From Thermoanaerobaculia bacterium (GTDB lineage: Bacteria; Acidobacteriota; Thermoanaerobaculia; Gp7-AA8): a stretch of 64,000 nt of DNA. Where the stretch lies: assembly GCA_017883205.1 (NCBI GenBank), contig JADGNZ010000024.1, positions 1 to 64,000 on the forward strand. The letters are read 5' to 3'. Shown here piece after piece: positions 6,626 to 60,084 of this stretch. The first letter of the stretch is position 1. Each line of letters starts with the position of its first letter. A model generated the notes under the pieces. It saw nothing but the letters and a program-made list of their open reading frames with translations, searched no databases and was not told the DNA's origin. A program made the position numbers and the translations under genes.

Positions 6626-7257
6626 TGTGACACCCCCTGCGTCAGCTTCGCGCGCTGATCTGCCGGCAAATCATTCATGGTTCCGTTCTGGCTCAGTTGC
6701 AGGGCACGAACATAGGCGATGATCGCCCATCGGTCGGCGACGGGAATCTGTACCGCGTACGTGGGCATGGCCCCGAATCCATTGGTCATCACGTCAAAGA
6801 AGTGTCCCGTTTTCGCGTTCCGCAACGCGTCGGTGTGAAACGACGGCGGACGCCGCAGACCGCGCGACGGAATCATGCCGTTGCCGTCGCCGGCGCGGCC
6901 GTGACACACGGAGCAGTAGATGTTGAAACGTTCCTGACCGCGATCCATGACCGCCGCGGTAATCGGGAAGGGGTAGCCATCGCCATCGGCGCCGTTGATT
7001 CTGCCGGTGGCGAGGAAGGTGTCGTTGGCCAGCTCCCCGCGAGCGACAGTTCCGGGGATGCGAGGACGCGCGGACATGCCGTCGGCGAAGAAATCGCTTG
7101 GCTCGAGCGGATCGTATTTGGGTTGGTTGGACATCTTCTGTCTGCAGGAAATCAGAAGGCAGAAGGCAGAAGGCAGAAGGAAAAGCACGAGCGAGCGGCG
7201 CAGTGTCACGCCACTTCTGCCTTCTGCTTTCTGCCTTCTGACTTTACCAAGGAACAT
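6622..7257 (-). CDS. actE: Alternative complex III subunit ActE (lipoprotein monoheme cytochrome c)
   Basis: A 211-residue lipoprotein cytochrome. The heme motif CSVCH is at 115-119 and a likely axial Met lies in [10 protein letters not shown]. The conserved ActE stretches [12 protein letters not shown] and [12 protein letters not shown] follow the lipobox LLISC (Cys38). The start lies inside the last codons of actD. Unusually, the first 38 residues, including the whole hydrophobic core, are encoded by the two arms of an intergenic-type repeat (7152-7242), giving a long basic n-region (1-22). A start at the internal Met42 would lose the signal peptide, so the upstream ATG is preferred. Confidence 0.9.
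7152..7242. repeat. CAGAAGG-type inverted repeat overlapping the actE start
   Basis: The left arm (7152-7180) is built of cagaaggcagaagg units and the right arm (7214-7242) of their reverse complement, with about 33 bases between them. A weaker single arm of the same kind occurs near 45514-45530. Here the repeat lies inside coding sequence and encodes the ActE signal peptide. Confidence 0.8.
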
Positions 7258-13351: not shown

Positions 13352-13522
13352 GCAATTGACAATTGCCAATGGACAATTGACAACGGCGGGAGATCAGAGA
13401 CTCAGAGAGCAGGGGCGATGGAGCAGCGGCGTCAGCGGTATCTCCCGTCTTGATCTCCAAGCCTCTGGCCGCGACGCCGTCACCGCTCGTTGTCAATTGT
13501 CCATTGTCAATTGTCAATTGCC
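13352..13522. repeat. CAATTGACAATTG-type paired inverted repeat
   Basis: The left arm (13352-13385) and right arm (13488-13522) are built of caattgacaattg / caattgtcaattg units and can pair over about 34 bases, with roughly 100 bases between them. The same family appears at 33366-33392, 34085-34100 and 58869-59004. The stop codon of the DUF502 gene lies within the right arm. Confidence 0.8.
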
Positions 13523-14083: not shown

Positions 14084-14233
14084 GGGGGTGGGGAGTGGGG
14101 GGTAGGGAGTGGGAGTAGAACCGGTCTCCCGACTCTCGATTACCGACAACCGACAATCGACAACCGGAAGGCGCCCAACAACCAACTTATCGAAAGACAA
14201 CTCCCACACCCCACACCCCACACCCCACTCCCT
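14084..14233. repeat. GGGGAGTGGGG-type paired inverted repeat
   Basis: A G-rich arm (14084-14122) and C-rich arm (14203-14233) enclose a ccgacaaccgacaatcgac run. The repeats fill the gap between the divergent DUF502 and sigma factor genes, so any promoter for either gene lies inside or next to the hairpin. Confidence 0.75.
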
Positions 14234-15717: not shown

Positions 15718-16238
15718 AGAACGACGAAGAAGGCGTAAAGCCCGGCGGTGAGGTACAGCTTCTGATCGATAAACATGAAAACATAGATCACGTCGACGAT
15801 CGCCCAGATCAACCAGTTCTCCACGATCTTCGTGTTCAGCATGAACTGTCCGACGATGCTGAACGCGGTCGTCACCGCATCCCAGATCGGCAGCGAGGCG
15901 TCATGTGACGTTGCCCGCAGCAGCCAGAAGAATCCGACCGTGAGAAGGACGCCGATCGACATCAGAATGGTCCACATCTTCGACGATGCACGCGTGATCT
16001 TCAGCTCGGTCTTGTTCTCGCCGCCGTGCAGCCACTCGTACCAGCCGTGAATCGAGAGCGCGAAGTAGACGAGCTGCAGGCCCGCATTCAGATAGAGATG
16101 CGAACGCCAGAAAACGACGAGGTAGAGCAGGACGCTGGCGATGCCGGTCGGCCACGTCCAGATGTTCTCCTTCACCGCCAGCCAGACGTTCGCCAGCGTG
16201 AAAATGACCGCGGCGATCTCGAGTGGCGTGAAGGTCAA
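15666..16238 (-). CDS. pnuT: PnuC-family vitamin permease, probably thiamine (PnuT-type)
   Basis: A 190-residue membrane protein with about seven helices and the PnuC-family motifs WTWPTGIASVLLYLVVFW, HGWYEWLHGG and NWLIWAIVDVIYVFMF. I place the start at a TTG that overlaps the receptor's TGA stop (TTGA); sequence further upstream in frame only shadows the receptor. PnuC proteins passively carry nicotinamide riboside, and a thiamine-specific branch (PnuT) is known under TPP riboswitches. The operon context favours thiamine. Confidence 0.85.
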   Translation of the reverse strand: MTFTPLEIAAVIFTLANVWLAVKENIWTWPTGIASVLLYLVVFWRSHLYLNAGLQLVYFALSIHGWYEWLHGGENKTELKITRASSKMWTILMSIGVLLTVGFFWLLRATSHDASLPIWDAVTTAFSIVGQFMLNTKIVENWLIWAIVDVIYVFMFIDQKLYLTAGLYAFFVVLCVKGLLDWRRTAHASV

Positions 16239-18478
16239 CGCCGGAAATCTACCATCACCACGGCGTTCCGCGTGGCCTGCGGGTAGTAGTAGGAGATGCC
16301 GCTGATCGTCTTTTCGGGAGTGAGAAAGAGATAGCTGTAGCCGCTCGGGAAGACGCGCTTGTCGTTGAGGACGTTGTTGATCTGCACGCGCAACGTGGTA
16401 TCGCGAGAGAGGCGGATCGCCGCGTTCGCATCGATCGTTGAGAATGCCGGTGCGACGAAGGAGGCGTTGTTCGTGTTGTCGAGATAGGAGCGTCCGACAT
16501 GGCGTCCGGTCACGCCGAGGGTGAGCGACGACGATGCCATGTACTCGATCGACTGATTGACGATCATCGTCGGTGTCAGCACAGGGTTGACGTCGTGATA
16601 CGTGATGGGCTCGCTGCCGGTGATGTTTCCCGCCGCATCGTAGACATCGTAGAACTGCGTCCAGGTGTGGATGCGGTTGCGGCTGATGCTGGCGTTCCCG
16701 CGCAGATGCAACTTCGGCATCGCCTGCCACCCATACTCCATCTCGATTCCTCGGCGATAACTGCGATCGACGTTGCGACGCAGCAGGAGTCCGATGTCGG
16801 ACAGCTCGCCGGTGGATGCGATCTCGTGGCGAAACTCCATCGCGTAGACGTTCGCGCTGACGGTCAGCGGTCCGCGATGGGCATCCCATCCCGCTTCGAG
16901 ATCGACGACACGCTCGGGGCGCACTGCGCGCAGATCGTGTGCAAACGAGACATTGTCCTCGCCTTGAAAGAGATCGTTGCGCGTCGGCTCGCGCGTGGAG
17001 ATACCCGCCGAGGCGTAGACGCCGGTGGATGGAGAAAGGTCGTAGCGAGCGCCGAGCTTGGGATTGAAAAACGTCCAGCGGATTGGCGCGATGGCGACGT
17101 CGCCATGGTAGTGAAAGTTGGTCGTGCGAAGCTGCGCATCGGAGTAGAGATGCCACGAGCCCTCGTCGTAGCGCAGCTTGGCGAAGGCGTTGGCTTCCCC
17201 CTTCGTGCCGTAGTTCGAATAGAGACGCGCGCCTCCCGAGTCGAGCGTGTGGGTGCGCTGGAACTCGTTCACGTGCAGACCGTAGTTGGCGGTCCACGGG
17301 CCGTGCGTGGTACTCAACGTCACCATCGAGCCGACGAGCAGACCATCGAGACCGTACTGATCGCCGGACAGCCGGTACCAGCCGTAGCCACGCTGATAGA
17401 ACGCGGAGGCCGTCATGTTCGTCTGCGGCGAAAGAGCGCGCAGATACTGCAACTGCGCGAGGTCGTAGCCGAAGCTGTCGCGGTCCTGGGGGCCGAGCGG
17501 ATTGGCGCGCAGGTTTGTCGCCAGCGTGTCTGCGTCGGCCGCGTCAAACGATTGCTGCGTCCACTCGTGCGCGGTGAATCCGGTCAGCTTGAGTTGCGAG
17601 TTGTCATTTTGTTTCGCCGCGCTGACGAAGAGGTTGTGGCCGCGAAATCCCGACGACTCCCGAAATCCATCCGACTGATCCGCCGAAAGCCGCGCATAAA
17701 ACGCATAGCCACCCGGCAGGGCGCCCGACTGGTACCCGACAGTGGCGTTCTTCGTCCCGAACGATCCAACGCCAACCTCGGCGCTCGTCGACGACGCAGG
17801 CGCCAGCGCTATCGATTCGAAATTGATCGAGCCGCCGAAGGCCGGCGAGCCGACCGTCGATGTCCCGACGCCGCGCTGCACCTGAACCGATTGCAGCGAC
17901 CGCGCGAGGTCCGGGAAGTCCGCAAAGTACGTCCCCATATCCTCGGAATCGGCGAGCGGAACGCCATCCAGCGTGAAGTTGAGCCGCGTCGGACTGATCC
18001 CGCGCAAGGTGATGTACGAGTACCCCGAGCCTCCAATGCCGGATTCGGTGTACGTGTCGATCGACGGCGTATCGCGCAACAGGAGCGGGATGTCCTGCCC
18101 GTAGTAATCGCGCTCGATGGTCCCGCGGTCGACATCGCTCTTCGTCACCGGCGTCTGCGCTTCCGCGCGAATCCCGCTGACGACGATGTTCTCTGCGAGG
18201 CCGGGCCGCAGCGTGATGACAACTTCCGCATCCGTGCTTGCCGGAGTCGCCATCGCCTGGAATCCGCTGCGCGTGACGATGAGCGTGTACTTCCCTGCCG
18301 GAACATCGAGCGCGAAGCGGCCCTCGATATCGGTCGTCGCCGTGCGATATCCCTCGACCGCCACAGTCGCCGCGTCGATCGGCTTTCCATCAACGCCCCG
18401 AACGACACCTTTCAACGCAGCGGCAGAAACAAGAACCGGAAGAAAGAGGAGAAAGAAAACAACGCGAACAACCCTCAT
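16235..18478 (-). CDS. TonB-dependent outer-membrane receptor under TPP riboswitch control
   Basis: A 747-residue receptor with a signal peptide (1-19), a carboxypeptidase-regulatory-like domain (about 20-95), a plug domain (about 105-215, with PLLLRDTPSIDTYTESG and LNFTLDGVPLADSEDMG) and a 22-strand-type barrel to the C-terminus. It imports a scarce nutrient across the outer membrane using TonB energy. The TPP riboswitch ending about 12 bases before its ATG and the downstream PnuC and kinase genes point to thiamine or a phosphorylated form. Length and domain order are normal. Confidence 0.92.
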   Translation of the reverse strand: MRVVRVVFFLLFLPVLVSAAALKGVVRGVDGKPIDAATVAVEGYRTATTDIEGRFALDVPAGKYTLIVTRSGFQAMATPASTDAEVVITLRPGLAENIVVSGIRAEAQTPVTKSDVDRGTIERDYYGQDIPLLLRDTPSIDTYTESGIGGSGYSYITLRGISPTRLNFTLDGVPLADSEDMGTYFADFPDLARSLQSVQVQRGVGTSTVGSPAFGGSINFESIALAPASSTSAEVGVGSFGTKNATVGYQSGALPGGYAFYARLSADQSDGFRESSGFRGHNLFVSAAKQNDNSQLKLTGFTAHEWTQQSFDAADADTLATNLRANPLGPQDRDSFGYDLAQLQYLRALSPQTNMTASAFYQRGYGWYRLSGDQYGLDGLLVGSMVTLSTTHGPWTANYGLHVNEFQRTHTLDSGGARLYSNYGTKGEANAFAKLRYDEGSWHLYSDAQLRTTNFHYHGDVAIAPIRWTFFNPKLGARYDLSPSTGVYASAGISTREPTRNDLFQGEDNVSFAHDLRAVRPERVVDLEAGWDAHRGPLTVSANVYAMEFRHEIASTGELSDIGLLLRRNVDRSYRRGIEMEYGWQAMPKLHLRGNASISRNRIHTWTQFYDVYDAAGNITGSEPITYHDVNPVLTPTMIVNQSIEYMASSSLTLGVTGRHVGRSYLDNTNNASFVAPAFSTIDANAAIRLSRDTTLRVQINNVLNDKRVFPSGYSYLFLTPEKTISGISYYYPQATRNAVVMVDFRR

Positions 18479-18490
18479 GATGGCTCCGAT

Positions 18491-18568
18491 GCCTTTCCCT
18501 ACGCCGGTCCAAACCGGATCAGGTTCCAGGGTGTGATCTCAGGCCGTGGTTGCGGCCACCCCTAGGCT
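18491..18568 (-). ncRNA. TPP riboswitch (THI element)
   Basis: Read on the minus strand, the conserved parts appear in order: CTAGGGGTGGCC, CTGAGATCACACCC, the signature GAACCTGATCCGG, and ACCGGCGTAGGGAAAGG. This matches the THI-box consensus closely, including the pyrimidine-sensing CTGAGA bulge. It ends within about 12 bases of the receptor ATG, so control is probably by hiding the ribosome binding site when TPP is bound. Confidence 0.95.
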
Positions 18569-18592
18569 TCGGTGCGGATGGTACTACGACTG

Positions 18593-21499: not shown

Positions 21500-21504
21500 G
21501 ACCG

Positions 21505-21620
21505 AAATTCCTCCTGCGAAAGGAAATATCCTCCTGCAGAGGAAAATCTCCTCCTGCAGAGGAAAATATCCTCTTGCGAAGGAAAATATCCTCCTCCAGA
21601 ACACTTTAGTGGTCTTCGAG
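21505..21620. repeat. Array of 20-bp AGGAAAATATCCTCCTGCAG units
   Basis: Four to five consecutive units of about 20 bases (consensus aggaaaatatcctcctgcag) start near 21520, and degenerate pieces continue to about 21760. Each unit contains the near-palindrome AGGAAAATATCCT and the CTGCAG palindrome. It follows the broken antitoxin gene and lies in no recognisable gene, although a frame stays open through it on the minus strand (21455-21991). Confidence 0.75.
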
Positions 21621-21719
21621 AGGAGATTTTGACTCCTGCAGAGGACATCGCGCCTCCCTCGGAAGCAGAAAATGCTCCGAAAGAGCGAAATTTGCCTCCA
21701 GAGGAGCGTCCGGGCCGCT

Positions 21720-21870
21720 GACGCGAAAGGAAAATATCCTTCGCAAGAGGATATTTTCCTCTGCTGTTGCCAAAATTGCTCTATAGCCAAAGGACTTCTC
21801 CTCTGCTGTTGCCAAAATTGGTTATAGGCAAAGGATTTCTCCTCCGCTGTTGCCAAAAATTGCTTTATTC
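21720..21870. repeat. Array of about 42-bp GTTGCCAAAATTG units
   Basis: Three tandem copies, 41-42 bases apart, share ctgctgttgccaaaattg followed by a variable atagccaaagg and ttctcct. The last copy is cut short. They are preceded by the hairpin-like aggaaaatatccttcgcaagaggatattttcct at 21727-21760, which links this array to the 20-bp array beside it. Confidence 0.75.
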
Positions 21871-37703: not shown

Positions 37704-38195
37704 AGCCATCGACGATGCGTTTTGAACCGTCGACGGTGCGTTTTGATCCATCGATGCTGCTATTTCATCCATCGACGGTGCTTTTTCATCCATCGACGGT
37801 ACGTTTTGATCCATCGATGGCTCGTTTTGAACCAACGACGGTACGTTTTGATCCGACGATGGTTCGTTTTGAACCAACGACGGTACGTTTTGATCCAACG
37901 ACGGTGCTTTTTGAACCAACGATGGTTTGTTTTGATCCAACGATGGTTCGTTTTGATCCGACGATGGTTCGTTTTGAACCAACGACGGTACGTTTTGAAC
38001 CAACGACGGTACGTTTTGATCCAACGACGGTGCTTTTTGAACCAACGATGGTGCTTTTTGAACCATCAACGGTTCTTTTCGGCCAACGACGGTGCTTTTT
38101 GAACCATCGATGGTTCTTTTCGGCCCCCGACGGTGCTTTTTGAACCATCGACGGTTCTTTTCGGCCATCAACGGCTCTTTTCGGCCATCGATGGT
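37704..38195. repeat. Array of about 24 CCATCGACGG units with 20-21 bp period
   Basis: A core of type CCAWCGAYGG (perfect palindrome ccatcgatgg in some units) recurs from 37704 to 38183, with 9-11 bases of T-rich spacer (gttttgatcc, gctttttgaa, ttcttttcgg). Spacing is exactly 21 in the first units I counted and 20 at several places near the end. Frames on both strands stay open through most of it because of the period. It fills the gap between the protease and the ABC-F gene. Confidence 0.9.
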
Positions 38196-38255
38196 GCTTT
38201 TGACCCACCCGGCACCACACTCCGACCCCCGACCCCCGACACGCGACCCCGAAAC

Positions 38256-53077: not shown

Positions 53078-53174
53078 GCCTAACGTTGTTATTGAGCCCC
53101 AGGCCCCTTCGCCACCGAAAAACCTGGTGTGACGGATATCGGGTGATGGGGCTTGGTGCGGCGTGGATCGTAAC
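53078..53174 (-). other. attC-like site, degenerate
   Basis: It begins with GCCTAAC (53078-53084) and contains inverted gagccccaggcccc / ggggcttgg. The other end reads gtaac rather than GTTRRRY. It marks the last cassette-like boundary before the 21-bp array. Confidence 0.45.
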
Positions 53175-53407
53175 ATGCGGCTGTCGAATGGGTTGGCTCA
53201 CTGCGGCTGTGGTCATGGCGCGGTTATCGGTCGGGTCGTGACGGCGAATCTTCCGTCGCGCTGCCCAGCGCATCGAGAGGGCGATGAAATTTCGTTTGCG
53301 GGAATAACCGAGGCCAGTTGCGGCACGACTTCGTCGATTCTGGCCAGTTTTCTACCAAAATCGGGTGATTCCGACCCTCCGACGGCCCCTTGGTCGATTT
53401 CAAATTT

Positions 53408-53734
53408 GAGTACCGACTCAAAAAATATGAGTACGGACTCAAAAAACATGAGTACCGACTCACCGGATTTGAGTACGGACTCACCGAACTTGAGTACGGA
53501 TTCAAAAAATGTGAGTACCGACTCAAAAGATGTGAGTACCGACTCAAACGTTATGAGTCCGGACTCACCAAGTTTGAGTACCGACTCACGCGATGTGAAT
53601 ACGGACTCACACGATGTGAGTACGGACTCACCGGACATGAGTACGGACTCAGATGACGTGAGTACCGACTCGAGAAGTGTGAGTACCGACTCATCGGTCT
53701 CGAGTCCGGACTCGAAAAACCTGACTCCGCACTC
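53408..53734. repeat. Array of 16 GAGTACSGACTC units at exactly 21 bp
   Basis: The 12-base near-palindrome GAGTACCGACTC / GAGTACGGACTC (perfect form GAGTCCGGACTC) starts at 53408 and recurs every 21 bases through 53723, 16 units in all. The nine bases between cores vary (aaaaaatat, accggattt, acgcgatgt and others). Because 21 is a multiple of 3, several frames stay open, giving heptad patterns such as STDSKNM; I do not take these as proteins. Confidence 0.95.
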
Positions 53735-53841
53735 ACGGGACGAGGATGGCGACGCGGTTCGCGGTTGCCCGGACGTCAACGTTGCCGGTCTCGAAGGTGC
53801 GTGATCGCTTCGTGACGGCCGTTTACCGCTTCCCTGCTCGG

Positions 53842-54240
53842 CGGTGAGTCATCCGTTGCCGCGGGCAACGACTCTCGCATCTTCGCGATGAGGCAACCCG
53901 GCAACCTCGCAAAACGGCGAGCCGGAACCGCGAATCCGCAACTCCCGAAATCAGTCCCGTAACCTTCCGACGGGCTGCTGCGTCTCACATTCAGAGCACG
54001 GCCATCAGCGCGTCGCTGATGGCCACTACCTGGATCGTCGTACGTGAAAAACGCAGGAGAAAGCTATGGACGACAAGCGGAGCCGCCAACCTCATCCCTC
54101 GGTGCGGCAATCCGCTCCCGGCACCGCGAAGAGCCGGGACCCGGAAAACCACCAAAACAACTTTCTGCCGGGCTGATGCGTCATACATCCAGAGCACCGA
54201 AGTTCCCGGCCGGCAGCGTGTCGCTGACGGCCAGTAAACA
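53842..54240. repeat. Imperfect tandem duplication of about 200 bp
   Basis: Two diverged copies share an order of motifs: a gccggaaccgcgaa-like part, then gacgggctgctgcgtctcacattcagagcacgg against gccgggctgatgcgtcatacatccagagcaccg, then gcgtcgctgatggccactacctgg against gtgtcgctgacggccagtaaacag. No gene fits either copy. It leads up to the 249-residue gene. Between 52923 and 54306 I see only this, the 21-bp array and the attC-like site. Confidence 0.55.
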
Positions 54241-54306
54241 GTCGAAGTACCCGAACATCCAGACCCACGCGGGTAAGGGCGCGTGGCTATGAGATCCGGA
54301 GATGTT

Positions 54307-55056
54307 ATGAGACAACGCAACCAAAGCAGCAGTCCTTCTTCCACCTCGGGCAAGCGCGTTCGTAGCGACACGAGCGCAGGCAAGCGTGGCCGCTCGGTTC
54401 AGGCCCGCAAGCCGTCCGCCCGGGACGCCGTCGCATCCCCCGGCCCTTCCACGCCGCCGGCTGATATGTCCCCCGAGGAGCAAGCCGCCGCACTCATGGC
54501 CAAGCTCGATGAGTTCCAGGCACTGATGCCCGAGTTCCAGCATCACGATCCGAACGACATCCGCCGCGTGGCCGGGGTCGCTCGCTTCGCCGCCGACCTG
54601 GTGGTGCCGACCATCGCCCTGGTGACGTCCTTTCCACCCGCCGCCGACCGGAACCTCTTCGACACTGAAGCGAACCAGTTGCGGGTGCGTGCCTTTGACG
54701 CACTGGGGCCGGTCGTGCAGCGTCTCAACGCTCTCGCCGCCGGAGTGCAGTTCACCCGCCACAACGGAATGGGCGAGGCGGGATCCCAGAGTCTCGACGT
54801 GTTCACCTGGGGCAAGTCGTATTCGAAGCGGCCCGATGCCGCCGCCCTCCGCCCGTACGTCGCCACGATGTCGAAGGTTGTGAAGAAGGTGCTCAACCGC
54901 CGCAAGCGGAAGGCATCACCACCCCCCGCCCCCGCGCAGTTGCCCCCCGGTGCACAGGGTCTCCTCGCTTCAAACTTCGTCCCTTCCAAGCCCGCCGCTG
55001 AAGAGGTCTATCCCGACTACTTCAACGAGGCGTTGGATCGGGCTACGAAGAAGTAA
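54307..55056 (+). CDS. Hypothetical protein of unknown function
   Basis: A 249-residue soluble protein. The first 55 residues are basic and Ser-rich (low complexity). A helical core (about 60-200) includes PEEQAAALMAKLDEFQALMPEFQ and FDTEANQLRVRAFDALGPVVQRLN, and the tail is Pro-rich. The start at 54307 follows a GGAGAT site. No family was recognised. A terminator follows. Confidence 0.65.
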   Translation: MRQRNQSSSPSSTSGKRVRSDTSAGKRGRSVQARKPSARDAVASPGPSTPPADMSPEEQAAALMAKLDEFQALMPEFQHHDPNDIRRVAGVARFAADLVVPTIALVTSFPPAADRNLFDTEANQLRVRAFDALGPVVQRLNALAAGVQFTRHNGMGEAGSQSLDVFTWGKSYSKRPDAAALRPYVATMSKVVKKVLNRRKRKASPPPAPAQLPPGAQGLLASNFVPSKPAAEEVYPDYFNEALDRATKK

Positions 55057-58868: not shown

Positions 58869-59004
58869 GGGCACTCAGCAATTGATAATGGACAATTGAT
58901 AATGGACAATTGACAATTGACAACGAACAGACGCGGTCCACGATCCACGTGAGACAGGCATGCGTTGGTGTTCGTTGTCAATTGTCAATTATCAATTGTC
59001 AATT
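58869..59004. repeat. CAATTGATAATGG paired inverted repeat
   Basis: The left arm (58869-58923, caattgataatggacaattgacaattgac) and right arm (58972-59004, ttgtcaattgtcaattatcaattgtcaattg) pair over more than 30 bases. It lies between the DJ-1/PfpI gene and the next minus-strand gene. Confidence 0.8.
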
Positions 59005-59013
59005 GCCTCTCCG

Positions 59014-59828: not shown

Positions 59829-60084
59829 GCAGGCGCGGGGGTCGCGGGTCGGGGGTCGGGGGTCGGAGCGGGGTGTGGGGAGTGGGGAGTGGGGAGTGGG
59901 GAGTGGGGAGTGGGGAGTGGGGAGTGGGAGCGGCAAGCTCCCGATCCGCCGTTCTGATCTCTCGCGCCCTGATCTCTTTGACTCCTCTCTCGAACAGCAA
60001 CGCGCCACTGCCACTGCTCCGACTCCCGACCCCCGACTCCCGACTCCCACTCCCCGCTCCGACCCCCGACAACCGACCCCCGCA
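59829..60084. repeat. GGGGAGTGGGG direct and inverted repeat block
   Basis: About seven direct copies of gtggggag (59876-59929), preceded by gggtcgggggtcgg units, face a C-rich block (60019-60084, ctcccgacccccgactccc...). The arms are about 90 bases apart. It lies between divergent genes. Apart from this, 59604-60116 shows no gene. Confidence 0.8.

Follow-up and report, generated by a model that had tools for sequence, protein, structure and literature searches.

Geometry and conservation of array A

What keeps a row of short palindromes in register over more than a dozen copies in a bacterial chromosome, and what might such a row serve? The question is raised by array A on the forward strand of a Thermoanaerobaculia genome, at positions 53407–53742 of the window (the whole 64,000-nucleotide stretch analysed here), where 16 units of 21 bp each combine a core, TGAGT-ACSG-ACTCA, with a 7-bp variable linker. 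The original prediction of sixteen palindromic units at an exact 21-bp spacing is confirmed, as the step runs with zero slips from the first unit at 53407 (core at 53408) to the sixteenth at 53722 (core at 53723). The exact 12-mer GAGTACSGACTC occurs in 11 of the 16 units and the remaining five are variants, two of which form the perfect palindrome GAGTCCGGACTC; the last unit is degenerate. Tandem Repeats Finder scores the array at up to 273, and an Rfam scan found no RNA family matching it. Over the 132 units of eight array A copies, conservation amounts to 87–99% at the ten arm positions, 50–91% at the four central positions and 44–74% at the seven linker positions, leaving the arms TGAGT/ACTCA near-invariant while the centre and linkers drift.

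Array A is part of a larger dispersed element. Its left flank (53285–53406, forward strand, GGAATAAC...CCAAAATC...TCGATTTCAAATT) is conserved in a six-copy alignment of the dispersed copies, as well as in those of the genus-mate G002 (Thermoanaerobaculia assembly Chersky.31_28), and its right flank (53743–53860, forward strand, GAGGATGGCGACGCGGTT...GTGCGTGATCGCTTCGTGACG) is likewise conserved in dispersed copies. The array with some 120 bp of flank on each side occurs six times in the genome and twice in G002, the five further near-full copies in the genome being 77–86% identical across the array (best E=1.7e-108). The unit-by-unit alignment of the copies shows that duplication involved entire elements, not the renewed copying of individual units. 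Orphan arrays (those with no linked gene) arise through such dispersal of an array together with its flanks, which the original prediction had not foreseen. A hairpin element with arms GCCCGCTTTCTCACAC / GTGTGAGAAA.GCGGGC (loci L002, L003 and L186), which adjoins two array A copies and is also found in the G002 gap beside an ABC-F gene, represents another dispersed repeat.

One of the G002 copies lies upstream of that genome's closest relative (69% identical) of the gene following array A, and the two loci are therefore treated as likely orthologs. Each of the two arrays comprises 16 units, and they differ at 6.9% of arm, 27% of central and 38% of linker positions, in keeping with the proposal that selection acts on the core while linkers vary. 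This pattern bears directly on a neutral origin, by which functionless 21-bp arrays would arise through palindrome-favoured slippage. The genome is indeed also rich in 7-bp tandem arrays, and some 21-bp arrays are almost homogeneous, but the conservation of arms relative to linkers, the retention of 16 units without a slip across genus-level divergence, and the 5′-only linkage to particular gene families across phyla (see below) make a neutral minisatellite quite improbable.

A genome-wide class of two-turn arrays

A survey of 864 kb on five contigs, amounting to 14% of the 6.37-Mb genome (105 contigs), found 41 arrays, 38 of them with a period of 20–22 bp, which extrapolates to about 280 arrays in the genome. 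Spacings between neighbouring cores number 464 at 21 bp, 36 at 22 bp and 33 at 20 bp, and the 11 spacings at 18 bp and six at 24 bp come from two other arrays. The two-turn spacing originally proposed is supported by these counts, with almost nothing at 18 or 24 bp; the exactness of 21 bp holds for array A, and in the wider class 20- and 22-bp spacings also occur. Tested against column shuffles, 22 of the 41 arrays have a palindromic consensus unit (p<0.05), and about half are not significant individually. Cores differ widely from array to array (e.g., AGATCGCGATCT, GTCCGGAC, GATCCGGATC, CCATCGATGG, TCCAGATTCTGGA, GGAACTAAATAGTTC), and in a few arrays two types of core take turns, with a 42-bp period. 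By gene calls from the analysis's own caller the arrays are intergenic, the few overlaps being with low-scoring ORFs inside repeats; they occupy roughly 13% of the surveyed intergenic bases, and lie in 12 convergent versus four divergent gaps (118 and 117 such gaps being available). The abundance of arrays beyond array A defeats one of the two refuting conditions set originally, that no similar arrays occur elsewhere in this or related genomes. In relatives, partial samples contain many 21–22 bp arrays in G002 and G009, and few or none of comparable length in G001, G010, G012, G018 and G019.

Orphan arrays outnumber the gene-linked ones. Array B (37706–38205), a 20–21 bp palindrome array with core CCATCGAYGG, is an orphan filling a convergent gap, with about 12 substantial copies in the genome; in both genus-mates, where synteny was established on the ABC-F side, no array B stands next to the orthologous ABC-F gene. 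Two short arrays at 21504–21868, with periods of 20 bp and about 42 bp and AAGGAnnnTCCT-like cores, are probably degenerate orphans. Orphan arrays, then, seem to turn over. Such behaviour, the excess of orphans and the whole-element copies with common flanks at six sites would all suit a selfish dispersed repeat, in which array and flanks would together be mobile but non-autonomous, with the linked gene as mobiliser or passenger, as for REP/RAYT. This reading is nevertheless unlikely, considering that neither array-linked protein family carries a nuclease or transposase signature, that just one of eight examined Y1_Tnp (RAYT-type) loci lies near a 21-bp array (15 matches in the genome; contigs L177–L184 examined), and that the likely orthologous arrays retain their 16 units and conserved arms. 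The Y1_Tnp matches at L177 and L180 are accompanied by other repeats of 37–38 bp, palindromic or tandem, and the one at L180 also by a 21-bp array.

Two other features of the region were recorded in passing. Tandem arrays of 7 bp, of which 36 occur in 864 kb of the genome, are found in the window at 7153–7180, 13490–13520, 14203–14232, 58879–58923, 58975–59005 and 59836–60082, with units CAGAAGG, TTGTCAA, CCCACAC, CAATTGA, CGGGGGT, GGAGTGG and CCGACCC. A TPP riboswitch (18478–18573, reverse strand) directly upstream of a TonB-dependent receptor-like gene (16235–18478, reverse strand) suggests thiamine-related uptake.

A multi-copy gene family directly downstream

The gene following array A (54307–55056, forward strand) begins at an ATG (54307) preceded by GGAG, within a frame open from a GTG at 54283. 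Its product is basic (pI 10.3), and was modelled as an all-helical protein (core pLDDT about 90–96) with one 53-residue helix and a basic, disordered N-terminal tail; the model has no PDB or viral fold match, and the sequence belongs to no Pfam or NCBIfam family, its only PHROG match being marginal and of unknown function. Between array and gene, at 54000–54240, lie two diverged copies of the gene's upstream region (CGTCGCTGATGGCC / CGTCGCTGACGGCC), both of them preceded by a CATCCAGAGCAC-like stretch, resembling a truncated duplicate of the gene start.

Family matches number 35 in the window's own genome (G000), 28 in G002, six in G009 and two in G001, with none in 17 other relatives, and across a broader set of 396 Acidobacteriota genomes the family is limited to G000, G002 and G009 plus one weak match. 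Contigs end at several of the members, a probable effect of arrays interrupting the assembly. Linkage to arrays is strictly one-sided. For 43 family genes the sequence extends 1.5 kb or more upstream. An array lies in that 1.5-kb interval 5′ of 35 of them, and 3′ of not a single one, compared with 57 (5′) and 79 (3′) of 734 other genes (Fisher p=3.6e-28 for 5′ linkage); the remaining eight of the 43 have no detected array. This pairing with a multi-copy gene family directly downstream had not been foreseen when the palindromes were first proposed as sites for a dimeric protein.

The family-linked arrays carry many different cores. Protein similarity correlates with core similarity (Mantel r=0.59, permutation p=5e-4, N=38; in a second test r=0.30, N=24, p=5e-4), such that cores tend to be alike above roughly 45% protein identity and are unrelated below it. 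Close paralogs accordingly have similar cores and distant paralogs unrelated ones, and gene-less array copies are scattered between genes. Recent co-duplication accounts for part of this correlation, and may account for it alone.

DNA dyads, RNA hairpins or codons

Palindromes upstream of a gene may act as DNA or as RNA, and the distinction can be sought in the symmetry itself. The two base pairs nearest the centre of a core played no part in placing that centre, and no RNA hairpin could form them; across 37 distinct even-centred cores they are complementary in 54% and 59% of cases versus about 27% expected (the cores are not strictly independent, and p-values are approximate). Mismatched arm pairs in 64 gene-linked arrays, read on the gene strand, comprise 98 G-U versus 153 A-C pairs, with no enrichment of G-U. 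Both observations favour DNA symmetry over RNA hairpins. Covariation of arm positions within arrays is weak, with 45 complementary double changes versus 26 expected and a shuffle maximum of 39, and is not decisive, neighbouring units being related.

The central pairs and the G-U counts weigh against an RNA-level system, in which the array would be transcribed as a chain of hairpins and bound or processed by the downstream protein, as at type III toxin-antitoxin loci or guide-RNA arrays. Some features do speak for it: the array lies directly 5′ of the gene at every locus where it is found, the repeats could fold into short hairpins, and type III loci share the order of parts and co-evolving repeats (PMC5086642). 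However, a hairpin leaves the palindromic central pairs and the lack of a G-U preference unaccounted for, terminator-like sites separate array and gene at only six of 63 loci, and no toxin-like or Nop fold was found in the linked proteins. A system acting through RNA is consequently doubtful, and the arrays are better regarded as DNA dyads, in agreement with the original prediction.

A third option, that array A encodes a heptad-repeat protein, arises from a single frame (53163–53804) that remains open through the array and reads [LMV]STDSxN heptads, 21 bp being seven codons. The pattern of change does not resemble codon-level selection. Third-codon positions in the arms are as conserved as the other codon positions, and most of the changes in the T and D codons replace the amino acid (T to P, R, L, M; D to Y, G, H). 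Within the array copy G2b, one 20-bp unit breaks the frame, yet the cores that follow are intact, and no reading frame would keep the 20- and 22-bp spacings included in the class. On these grounds the coding explanation was rejected, and it now seems scarcely credible.

The same layout in other phyla

Scanning for the pattern GAGT....ACTC at 21 bp, designed on the arms of array A, located arrays in Planctomycetaceae, Tannerella, Lysinibacillus, Saccharomonospora and others. Since the pattern was chosen from array A, the common core is a selection effect, and it is the geometry that constitutes the finding. The Firmicutes examples are Lysinibacillus L053 and L048, and those of Actinobacteria are Saccharomonospora L050, L052, L058, L067–L072 and L075, with several loci per genome.

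Directly downstream of the Tannerella array is the gene for a different small protein, which has 19 paralogs in that genome, seven in a Tannerellaceae genome and three in a Planctomycetaceae genome. The model (mean pLDDT 93) has an N-terminal three-helix domain and, after it, a fibronectin type III (FN3) domain, and the family's charge is near neutral. Homology with the helical family was rejected, profile comparison by hhalign giving a probability of 0.5%. No DNA-binding fold was recognised in the models of either family, and searches of plasmid and phage proteins returned no match to the array-linked proteins. At all 27 loci of the three-helix/FN3 family having at least 150 bp of upstream DNA, a 20–22 bp array, or one at its dimer period, is found 5′ of the gene, and at none of them 3′. 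The pairing was further probed by two blind tests. In one further Bacteroidota genome the family profile matched nine genes, all nine with an array 5′. A profile of these nine then matched nine small proteins in Acidobacteriota via the N-terminal domain, five with an array and four without a detected one, as opposed to none of 21 controls matched through FN3 only (Fisher p=9e-4). The pairing of gene and array is thus present in at least three phyla, Acidobacteriota, Bacteroidota and Planctomycetota.

Comparison with known systems

Plasmid iterons are helically phased repeats of about 20 bp situated directly upstream of the gene for the Rep protein that binds them. The placing of helically phased repeats 5′ of a gene is seen here as well, but the present arrays are chromosomal, palindromic rather than direct repeats, and distributed over 10–35 paralogous loci per genome with different cores, while their proteins are unrelated to Rep as far as Pfam shows and lack a plasmid or phage match. 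CRISPR arrays combine repeats of about 25–36 nt with unique spacers that are roughly as long, and cas genes usually accompany them. That array A is no CRISPR had been asserted from the start, and its geometry bears this out and led to rejection: a 12–14 bp core and a 7–9 bp linker make up the 21-bp period, and linkers are common to several copies.

Type III toxin-antitoxin loci contain 2.8–5.5 copies of 34–36 nt repeats, a terminator before the gene, and an endoribonuclease toxin (PMC5086642). They resemble the present loci in that tandem repeats immediately precede the gene for a small protein, and in that related proteins go with related repeats, and differ in that the repeats here are of 21 bp in 5–27 copies, rarely with a terminator, and precede helical or FN3 proteins. 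No ToxN/CptN/TenpN-like endoribonuclease was detected by Pfam, NCBIfam or PADLOC, nor did the helical and FN3 models match such a fold in the PDB; given this and the scarcity of terminator-like sites, a type III assignment was rejected. TIGR-Tas arrays have 8–12 nt repeats and 9-nt variable spacers, some of them as stem-loop arrays, with a single adjoining protein gene; two repeats (edge and loop) alternate, and they bear box C/D motifs and are accompanied by a Nop-domain Tas protein (PMC12045711). The 12+9 nt geometry seen here recalls them, but array A has one palindromic core without strict alternation and arrays occur 5′ only. A search of the whole genome for PF01798 (Nop) gave no matches, the same search being positive in four archaeal controls, and in the absence of a Nop protein or a fold match TIGR-Tas was likewise rejected.

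REP/BIME elements are high-copy intergenic palindromes of 20–40 bp in one or a few sequence families, partly in arrays and some gene-linked (PMC3733652, PMC2817692). High-copy intergenic palindromes, some beside a protein gene, are common to both, but uniform 21-bp phasing, dozens of cores and other linked gene families set the present class apart. Association with RAYT was rejected on the scarcity of arrays near the eight Y1_Tnp loci examined and because the linked family is not Y1_Tnp.

A proposed two-part chromosomal system

The explanation that accommodates most of these observations, offered tentatively, is a chromosomal system in two parts, with array A as its cis half and with palindromes bound by a dimeric factor, probably the downstream protein. 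It draws upon the geometry, the conservation pattern, the strict 5′ linkage, the spread across phyla and the DNA-type symmetry. A dimeric DNA-binding factor would bind each palindrome, the simplest candidate being the product of the gene directly downstream. With a spacing of two turns, every site would face the same way on the helix, which would allow bound dimers to touch and assemble cooperatively, and the resulting nucleoprotein array may control the downstream gene. At orphan arrays, the same assembly might mark or organise other places in the genome. The original interpretation is supported in part, and the nucleoid or partition role that it suggested is putative. Gene and array would duplicate together and diverge in specificity as one unit.

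A broader version of this two-part reading, plausible though somewhat less likely, is that the arrays represent an undescribed class that at least two unrelated protein families, across at least three phyla, have reached convergently. Up to 35 paralogs per genome would each read their own palindrome code through two-turn-phased arrays, and hundreds of arrays would form a genome-wide nucleoprotein network. A literature search retrieved no 21-bp palindrome arrays linked to a gene family; most subscription journals were outside its scope, so that a prior description may exist, and the two-part gene-array system is apparently undescribed.

Even if they are selfish, the arrays are an unrecorded kind of repeat with an unusually strict geometry. 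With some 13% of the surveyed intergenic bases taken up by them, they would form a major and as yet unnamed component of chromosome organisation in these bacteria. Should the two-part explanation be true, the co-diversified pairs of protein and palindrome would amount to a natural library of orthogonal DNA-recognition pairs, and if the pairing holds, many uncharacterised multi-copy proteins would gain a concrete and testable partner in the array directly upstream.
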